DNA from: Ruminiclostridium sp.
Lineage (GTDB): Bacteria > Bacillota > Clostridia > Oscillospirales > Ruminococcaceae
DNA: 64,000 nucleotides
NCBI GenBank assembly: GCA_017935365.1
Contig: JAGBHT010000005.1
Location: 1-64,000 of the forward strand
Reading direction: 5' to 3'
The notes beneath the pieces were generated by a model that made no database searches, was not told where the DNA came from, and was given only the letters and a program-made list of their open reading frames with translations. Positions 28,305-51,518 of this stretch are shown one piece after another. A program made the translations under genes and the position numbers. Positions within the stretch are counted from its first letter, which is position 1. The number at the start of each line of letters is the position of its first letter.

Positions 28305-28545
28305 AAAGCGATATATTAAAGGCTTTGAAGGGAAAAAGTAGCGTGAAACGTGCTTTCAGAGAGTCGTTGGTCGGTGTGAAACGGCAGACGTTTTAATGTG
28401 AAGATACACCCCGGAGCTGTCCTGTGGGAACGGTGGCTACGTTATAGCTTTTGAGGTTCGTGTGAAATGGTCTAAACGCACGGATAAACTGAGGTGGTAC
28501 CGCGATAATTCGCCCTCTGTGCATTTTTGCACAGAGGGCTTTTTT
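28305..28545 (+). promoter_or_regulatory. T-box leader, predicted tyrosine specific
   Basis: The T-box sequence AGGTGGTACCGCG lies at 28492-28504. It is followed by a terminator, GCCCTCTGTGC / GCACAGAGGGC, with T6 (28512-28545). Stem I features are the AGAGAG motif (about 28361) and the GGTGTGAAAC distal loop. Aligning the 3' side of stem I with the glyQS leader places the specifier at 28405-28407, TAC, a Tyr codon. The TGGT of the T-box pairs with an ACCA tRNA end, as expected for an A discriminator. Uncharged tRNA-Tyr should therefore switch aroF on. Confidence 0.9.
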
Positions 28546-49817: not shown

Positions 49818-49954
49818 GTAATTACGGAAGAGCAAAACAATATTAAGTTATACCGAGCAGTTGCAATACAGTGTGCAAGAAAGCTCATTTTCCGCTTGAT
49901 AATGCGGGCTTACGGGTGAAAGAAAAATATTTAAAAATTTTTTCAAAAAACCTA
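49818..49954. other. spacer upstream of metY promoter
   Basis: About 140 bases, A/T rich near the promoter (a TTTAAAAATTTTTTC tract at about 49931, UP-element-like). No gene seen. Confidence 0.4.
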
Positions 49955-49984
49955 TTGACAAAACCTATCGGATTAGTGTATAAT
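49955..49984 (+). promoter_or_regulatory. metY leader promoter
   Basis: TTGACA (49955-49960), 18 bases, TATAAT (49979-49984). ACCTAT occurs at about 49950 and 49963, and its complement ATAGG lies in CAGATAGG just downstream at about 50000; these could form an operator for an Rrf2/CymR-like regulator, but that is speculative. Confidence 0.8.
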
Positions 49985-50051
49985 ACAAACATACCAAACA
50001 GATAGGCTTTGAGAATAAACAAAAACCTTCGGTTGTGAGCAAAAGAAAGGA

Positions 50052-50198
50052 GGCACATTTGATGAGTATCATCGTTAAAGCCTTAAGACACAACTTCAGA
50101 AACGGACGAATGTGCCGCTGTATAGCATAAGTAAAGTGCTTAATGCACACCCCAAAATCAAAACGAACGAAAAATAAGAATTTGACAGGCTATAAGCC
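50052..50198 (+). promoter_or_regulatory. predicted Cys-responsive attenuator of metY
   Basis: Segment 1, GGCACATT (50052-50059), within the leader peptide's ribosome binding region, is complementary to segment 2, AATGTGCC (50109-50116), which covers the Met-Cys codons. Segment 2 can alternatively pair with segment 3, GCACA (50145-50149), while segment 3 can pair locally with GTGC (50136-50139). A hairpin GGCT / AGCC (50188-50198) sits just before the metY ribosome binding site. Ribosome position on the Cys codons could select among these folds. Confidence 0.5.
50062..50130 (+). CDS. 22-residue leader peptide ending in Cys-Arg-Cys
   Basis: Starts ATG at 50062, eight bases after a strong AGGAGG, and ends at TAA 50130, 92 bases before metY. 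It is basic, and its C-terminus reads RMCRCIA, with two Cys codons (TGC, TGT) just before the stop. A short, well-translated frame with Cys codons next to alternative hairpins, before a sulfur-assimilation gene, fits a leader peptide for ribosome-mediated attenuation. A free function as a small peptide cannot be excluded. Confidence 0.6.
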   Translation: MSIIVKALRHNFRNGRMCRCIA

Positions 50199-50222
50199 GA
50201 CTTAAAGAAAGAGGTATTTACA

Positions 50223-51518
50223 ATGAGCTATACATACGATAACAACTACAGATTTGAGACAATCCAGCTTCACGCAGGTCAGGAAACTCCCGACCCTGCA
50301 TCAGACGCAAGAGCAGTTCCGATATATCAGACAACATCATACGTTTTCAAGAACAGCGCACACGCTGCCGCACGTTTCGGTCTTGCAGACGCAGGCAACA
50401 TCTACGGCAGACTTACAAACTCAACACAGAGCGTATTTGAAACAAGAATCGCAGCTCTTGAGGGCGGTGTTGCGGCACTCGCTACAGCATCGGGCGCAGC
50501 CGCTATAACATATGCTATACAGGCTCTCGCTTATAAGGGTGAGCATATAGTAGCACAGAAGACGATTTACGGTGGTAGCTACAACCTGCTTGCACACACG
50601 CTTCCCCAGTACGGTATCAGCACTACATTCGTAGACGCACACAACCTTGAAGAAGTTGAAAATGCAATCCAGGACAACACAAAGGCTATATACCTTGAAA
50701 CACTCGGTAACCCCAACAGTGATATACCCGACATTGACGCTATCGCAGAGATCGCTCACAAGCACGGACTTCCGCTCGTAATAGACAACACATTCGGTAC
50801 TCCTTACCTTATCCGTCCTATCGAGCACGGCGCTGATATCGTAGTTCATTCAGCTACAAAGTTCATTGGCGGTCACGGCACAACACTCGGCGGCGTTATC
50901 GTTGATTCAGGTAAGTTCGACTGGAAGAAGAGCGGTAAGTACGCTCCTATCGCAGAAGCTAACCCCAGCTATCACGGCGTATCTTTCGTAGATGCTGCAG
51001 GTCCTGCCGCATTCGTAACATATATCAGAGCAATTCTCCTGCGTGATACAGGTGCTACAATTTCACCTTTCAACGCATTCCTGCTCTTACAGGGTACAGA
51101 AACACTCTCATTAAGACTTGACCGTCATGTTGAGAATACAAAGAAGGTTGTAGAATTCCTTGCTAACCACCCCAAGGTTGAAAAGGTAAACCATCCTTCT
51201 CTGCCCGACCATCCCGACCACGCTCTTTATACAAAGTACTTCCCCAACGGCGGCGCTTCGATCTTCACATTCAACATCAAGGGCGGTCAGAAAGAAGCTC
51301 ACAAGTTCATCGACAGCTTACAGATCTTCTCACTGCTCGCAAACGTTGCAGATGTAAAGAGCCTTGTAATCCACCCCGCTACAACAACTCACTCACAGCT
51401 GACAGACGAAGAGCTTGCTGACCAGGGTATCGGCAGAAATACTATCCGTCTTTCGATCGGTACAGAGCATATCGACGATATCATCGCAGATCTCTCGCAG
51501 GCATTTGATAAAGTATGA
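50223..51518 (+). CDS. metY: O-acetylhomoserine sulfhydrylase
   Basis: About 431 residues, the long form typical of O-acetylhomoserine (thiol)-lyase. PLP-dependent Cys/Met family; the PLP Lys is in VHSATKFIGGHGTTLGGV (about residue 218). Further motifs are YGRLTNSTQ, LEGGVAALATASG and VNHPSLPDHPDH. It makes homocysteine from O-acetylhomoserine and sulfide; some family members also make cysteine. AAAGAGG precedes the ATG. A Cys-containing leader peptide suggests control by cysteine supply. Confidence 0.93.
   Translation: MSYTYDNNYRFETIQLHAGQETPDPASDARAVPIYQTTSYVFKNSAHAAARFGLADAGNIYGRLTNSTQSVFETRIAALEGGVAALATASGAAAITYAIQALAYKGEHIVAQKTIYGGSYNLLAHTLPQYGISTTFVDAHNLEEVENAIQDNTKAIYLETLGNPNSDIPDIDAIAEIAHKHGLPLVIDNTFGTPYLIRPIEHGADIVVHSATKFIGGHGTTLGGVIVDSGKFDWKKSGKYAPIAEANPSYHGVSFVDAAGPAAFVTYIRAILLRDTGATISPFNAFLLLQGTETLSLRLDRHVENTKKVVEFLANHPKVEKVNHPSLPDHPDHALYTKYFPNGGASIFTFNIKGGQKEAHKFIDSLQIFSLLANVADVKSLVIHPATTTHSQLTDEELADQGIGRNTIRLSIGTEHIDDIIADLSQAFDKV

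Follow-up and report, generated by a model that had tools for sequence, protein, structure and literature searches.

A conserved short leader peptide with an NFRxG-Arg(CGA)-Met core, and a putative role in attenuation, upstream of metY and other sulfur genes in Oscillospirales

The metY gene on a contig of Ruminiclostridium sp. (JAGBHT010000005.1; "the window" is the whole stretch of 64,000 nucleotides that was analysed) is preceded by a short open reading frame which, judged from genome comparison, is a real, unannotated leader element conserved across many gut Clostridia of the order Oscillospirales. Its invariant part is NFRxG-Arg(CGA)-Met(AUG), and not the cysteine codons that follow. Comparison of the relatives establishes a conserved peptide, a constraint on the CGA codon, selection for cysteine codons, an association with sulfur genes, and pairing of the presumed stall region with downstream control elements. 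With moderate confidence, we propose that the peptide acts in cis as the leader of a sulfur regulon in Oscillospirales, and that ribosome stalling at CGA-AUG or at the cysteine codons leads, in the window, to translational attenuation. To our knowledge, little has been described of how gut Oscillospirales control their sulfur amino-acid genes, and the leader family would provide a compact, genome-readable marker of a regulon including metY, metNIQ and sulfonate uptake.

The original prediction named a 22-codon frame with an AGGAGG and two Cys codons, lying between a consensus promoter and metY, and all of these are present as described (Table 1). The frame reads ATG AGT ... CGA ATG TGC CGC TGT ATA GCA TAA. 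No NCBIfam, Pfam or Rfam family was found for the peptide, and a literature search gave no occurrence of the sequence NFRFGRM. A known riboswitch or T-box of metY was considered and rejected, there being no Rfam match in the window leader; the sole Rfam match in the window is a T-box leader elsewhere, at 28316-28520, which at 109.4 bits lies over the Rfam gathering score. Nor was any Rfam riboswitch found in 20 metY loci without CGAATG. The palindromes ACCTA-N8-TAGGT and CCTAC..GTAGG surround the promoter, at 49950-50010 in the window and at the promoters of L127, L148, L175 and L203 (L numbers are our handles for loci). In L113, and apparently also in L116, what we take to be an Rrf2-type regulator gene lies divergently beside metY. 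Because of these promoter-flanking palindromes and the adjoining regulator gene, a repressor probably acts on metY too, besides the leader.

Table 1. Features of the leader and metY region in the window
Feature	Position	Strand	Remarks
Promoter TTGACA-18-TATAAT	49955..49984	+	sigma-70-type, 12/12 consensus match; CCTAT/ATAGG half-sites around (read by eye)
Leader Shine-Dalgarno AGGAGG	50048..50053	+	read from sequence
GGCACATT (segment 1 of the original prediction)	50052..50059	+	complement of 50109-50116; only in the NFRNGRM sub-type
Leader ORF MSIIVKALRHNFRNGRMCRCIA	50062..50130	+	22 codons; leader-peptide family member
N-F-R-N-G codons	50092..50106	+	kept as peptide, synonymous codons vary
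CGA-AUG (Arg-Met)	50107..50112	+	invariant, CGA in 78/78 leaders; presumed stall site
AATGTGCC (segment 2 of the original prediction)	50109..50116	+	complement of 50052-50059
Tail codons Cys-Arg-Cys (TGC CGC TGT)	50113..50121	+	Cys enrichment of tails
TGTATAGC	50119..50126	+	complement of metY start region; same pairing in L002, L040
metY Shine-Dalgarno AGAGG	50210..50214	+	read from sequence
metY, O-acetylhomoserine/O-acetylserine sulfhydrylase	50223..51518	+	TIGR01326 match, E=8e-189
GCTATACA (metY codons 2-5)	50227..50234	+	partner of 50119-50126

A short frame with the same C-terminal block recurs before metY homologues of the same genus and order, with the family consensus MxxxFxxL[LV]RxNFRxGRM, in which the Met is usually reached at exactly 18 residues. 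The sequence CGAATG lies no more than 350 bases upstream in 46 of 80 named public metY loci, mostly inside such a frame. A search of 394 genomes of the order for the pattern N[FY]RxGRM, with any Arg codon allowed, gave about 94 matches, and the reversed-pattern control about 28. Counts given below out of 78 refer to those CGA pattern matches (78 of about 84) which stood in leader context, each having been inspected. Sulfur genes are located downstream of 74 of these (metY 57, metQ 10, metN 2, SsuA-like sulfonate-uptake genes 3, and a yezD-like/ABC permease operon 2, the yezD-like label being presumed by eye and without an HMM match). The genome of the window possesses a second copy (G000:C6:37454-37507), before metQ and directly 3' of a methionine-transporter-like permease gene. 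A leader-peptide HMM run against 299 genomes of the phylum revealed no convincing member outside the order, strong matches coming only from the window's own genome and all others having E>=6e-4. In keeping with the original prediction, the peptide pattern searched for upstream of metY and sulfur genes in relatives uncovers a conserved, translated-looking leader before sulfur genes. Many of the conserved residues belonged to the search pattern, so that conservation of the peptide is partly built in, which does not hold for the Arg codon chosen; F5, L8 and R10 in the body are conserved though they lie outside the pattern. These body residues stand at a fixed distance from the presumed stall codon, as expected of an arrest peptide, and a conserved short frame with a Shine-Dalgarno sequence stands before the regulated gene, as expected of an attenuator.

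The final Arg-Met is encoded by CGA-AUG in all 78 clear members, CGA accounting for 2.8% of the Arg codons in the window genes. Synonymous codons are used freely in these leaders for N, F, G and the first Arg, all six occurring at the latter. Scanning of the named metY loci with no condition on the Arg codon gave CGA in every NFRxGRM leader; pattern matches with other Arg codons numbered ten, no more than chance, and the four that were inspected are not leaders. A gene for tRNA-Arg(ACG) is present in the genome and none for TCG was found by pattern, so that inosine probably serves to decode CGA. Translation of this codon was poor or slow in a his-leader assay in bacteria (PMC4046918). The invariant CGA offers a directly testable claim, namely that the tRNA pairing of a single codon can be part of a leader stall signal.

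Several variants were seen. In L111 (Faecalibacterium) the leader contains three copies of CGAATG and ends in CARMCTRM-stop. L053 and L060 possess another short metY leader, MQRLARLSAW[HN]QS[TN]FVMCR, with a Met-Cys end and without CGA. A different type, in which Met and Cys codons stand in runs (e.g. MCMCCCMC, MMCMCCMMCC), occurs in L045, L072, L095 and L141; in L045 (some 340 to 220 bases ahead of metY) and L141 (after the first terminator) it stands in tandem with an NFRxGRM leader. Such runs were scored in 8 of 80 metY upstream regions, in some via the NFRxGRM-type tail itself, and in none of the 80 when the opposite strand was read. The metY product of Treponema (L117, L119 and L121, including T. 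porcinum) is 86% identical to the Clostridial protein, and its leader is a related NFRNG[V/L]M with a Cys run, CGA being replaced by Val or Leu codons. This diverged leader was probably acquired together with metY by horizontal transfer.

The tail Cys codons, previously suggested to be the sensor, are strongly selected. Cys is present no more than six residues after the Met in 68 of the 72 tailed leaders of class I (class II denotes the Oscillospiraceae leaders with an SRA..MAG tail), and makes up 37% of tail residues versus 1.4% for the genes of the window and 2.1% when the two remaining frames are read; among unique tails the figure is 26% at positions 2-6. Both TGT and TGC are in use. Selected though they are, these codons are not invariant: 27 of 99 class I leaders stop directly after the Met without any Cys codon (24 with TGA, 3 with TAA), and so Cys-codon counting alone cannot be the whole story. 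Given these tail-less leaders, and the Treponema leaders which combine Val or Leu in place of Arg with several Cys codons, the Cys codons are under selection yet can be dispensed with where CGA-AUG is kept.

With regard to RNA structure, it had been proposed that a segment on the Shine-Dalgarno side pairs with one over the Met-Cys codons, that the latter can also pair with a downstream GCACA, and that stalling re-sorts these hairpins. GGCACATT and AATGTGCC are indeed exact complements, and their duplex has an energy of -17.0 kcal/mol where shuffles average -7.0, a value that 0 of 300 shuffles reach. Pairing of this kind is significant in 11 of 29 NFRNGRM leaders (including L002, L040, L061, L069, L135, L163, L164 and L166) versus 3% of other leaders. 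Confined as it is to this sub-lineage, pairing of the leader Shine-Dalgarno with CGAATG was rejected as a general mechanism. The third segment, GCACA, exists at 50145-50149 and is able to pair, but is absent in the close relative L040. A stall at the Cys codons would alter RNA pairing, in agreement with the original prediction. The general idea of a ribosome-mediated, sulfur-responsive leader is well supported, whereas the three-segment scheme is not conserved.

The window leader RNA as a whole is not unusually stable (z = -1.1). No intrinsic terminator was found in the window leader, nor as a rule in class I; a transcription attenuator with such a terminator was rejected for the window, where none lies between leader and metY. 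Any leader control there would thus be translational or Rho-dependent, and not classical termination; Rho was considered as the spacers look A/C-rich. A better-supported competing pairing in the window joins TGTATAGC, which lies over the second Cys codon, to GCTATACA at the start of metY. Across class I, 16 of 81 leaders show complementarity (p<0.05) between the stretch after CGAATG and the region of the gene start (binomial p=2e-6), compared with 7% for a control segment; the window's own pairing gives p=0.04 only. Upon masking of the stall site, the modelled accessibility of the gene Shine-Dalgarno increases from 0.32 to 0.51 on the class I average (control mask 0.42), and that of metY in the window shifts little, from 0.45 to 0.48. 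On these models, stalling in class I would mean ON.

As to the stalling itself, its trigger and its sign, we infer the following. The ribosome would slow or arrest either on Arg(CGA)-Met(AUG) or on the Cys codons that directly follow, the slowdown at CGA-AUG being aided by the nascent chain LxRxNFRxG together with the slowly decoded CGA codon. Since the RNA that a stalled ribosome would cover, 50107-50126, is otherwise predicted to pair with the metY start region, stalling would free that start. A shortage of cysteine, or of cysteinyl-tRNA, might in this way result in more MetY by translational attenuation. Against this explanation stand the leaders without a Cys codon, the small effect of masking and the p value of the pairing in the window, and class II, in which a ribosome at CGA-AUG is predicted to cause termination, opposite to starvation-induced expression.

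In class II there is an intrinsic terminator, and its 5' arm is complementary to a strand immediately 3' of CGAATG. Over ten aligned pairs, pairing is 94% and six of them change on both sides, which 0 of 500 shuffles reach. This covariation is biased upward, since the best match was picked as partner and two loci lacking one were excluded, but the covarying partner coincides with the terminator arm. In a partition-function model the probability of the terminator is 0.27 without a ribosome and rises to 0.90 once AUG occupies the P site; stalling in class II would mean OFF. Mutually exclusive structures that depend on ribosome position are modelled in class II, statistical in class I and weak in the window. 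The two classes are predicted to have opposite signs, which are at odds under a shared trigger. Either the triggers differ, class I stalling at Cys codons upon starvation and class II arresting in response to product, or one model is wrong. With a strict pattern, the SRA/MAG class gave 0 matches in 391 genomes of the taxonomic class.

This class II model, in which a ribosome on the AUG masks the antiterminator strand, and the covariation speak for a rival explanation that we consider possible, if rather unlikely: a ligand-induced arrest of the nascent chain, in which NFRxGRM senses an abundant sulfur metabolite (Cys, Met, SAM or homocysteine) and halts the ribosome while AUG occupies the P site, with repression as the outcome and the Cys codons being secondary. 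The leaders of several families that end right after GRM, and the usual distance of exactly 18 residues, are also consistent with it. It leaves the strong Cys enrichment of the tails unexplained, however, and in class I such an arrest would expose, not hide, the gene start. NFRxGR(CGA)M might even be, as we tentatively suggest, an arrest peptide that acts as a tunnel sensor of a sulfur metabolite, requires one specific inosine-wobble Arg codon, has Cys-codon sensing on top, and is a bacterial counterpart of plant CGS1.

It is improbable that the Met codon is what is sensed, with a ribosome on CGA waiting for Met-tRNA. The AUG is invariant while the next codon varies, and metY, metQ or metN lies downstream in 69 of the 78 leaders, but a single Met codon would make a weak sensor, the tails are enriched in Cys and not in Met, sulfonate-uptake genes are among the targets, and the terminator class would show the wrong sign. 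Very unlikely indeed is that CGAAUG(UG) is a factor-bound RNA or DNA motif and the peptide incidental. UGN does follow CGAAUG in 59 of 78 leaders whatever is encoded (stop, Cys or Trp), but the peptide ahead of it is conserved while its codons change freely among synonyms, the Cys enrichment is frame-specific, and the Treponema relatives keep the peptide and lose CGA. A chance frame without function, common as short ORFs are, is refuted by conservation, nearly all of the approximately 84 CGA matches lying before sulfur genes as against the roughly 28 matches of the reversed-pattern control.

The preferred explanation, stalling at CGA-AUG or at the Cys codons, invites comparison with known leaders. 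TnaC, SpeFL, the Erm leaders and plant CGS1/MTO1 are small-molecule arrest peptides. They resemble the Clostridial leader in having a conserved nascent chain at a fixed distance to the stall codon, and their stall re-sorts RNA structure or mRNA fate, but they show no sequence relation to it, and in the Clostridial leader both ligand and arrest are putative. We know of no requirement for one Arg codon in any of them.

The mycobacterial polycysteine leaderless short ORFs are cysteine-responsive attenuators (Canestrari et al. 2020, cited in PMC9031893). These ORFs (NF042936, Ms4527A) are likewise Cys-codon short ORFs before operonic genes, and ribosome speed at Cys is proposed as the control. Unlike these leaderless frames, the Clostridial leaders are led by a Shine-Dalgarno sequence, have an 18-residue body ending in NFRxG-Arg(CGA)-Met, and are devoid of Cys in a quarter of cases. 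The actinobacterial NF042934 leaders (RRHVDLxR[MVL]xSAxC type) are also short, have an Arg-Met/Val/Leu a few codons before Cys, and in some cases precede sulfatase or sulfonate-uptake genes; they differ in that the Arg codon is CGC, CGT or AGG and the Met is not conserved. Membership in NF042934 (cis_reg_atten) or NF042936 was rejected, there being no HMM match at E<=10 and 0 NF042934 matches in the window's own genome. The Streptomyces lividans metL leader before metNIQ ends in ...CMCRRMCAF; its authors infer methionine control and found no typical terminator (PMC8079986). Its Arg-Met-Cys end and its place before a methionine transporter recall some Clostridial members, but it is leaderless and has no NFRxG body; no homologue of the Streptomyces metL peptide was found in plasmids. 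uORFC-8-2, before cysS in Rhodobacterales, is an attenuator leader with conserved tandem Cys codons (PMC8632094). It is similar as a Cys-codon attenuator leader, but belongs to another phylum, gene and peptide and has an intrinsic terminator, which the window does not. The NFRxG-CGA-AUG body is absent from the nearest described of these systems, namely the mycobacterial attenuators, NF042934 and S. lividans metL.
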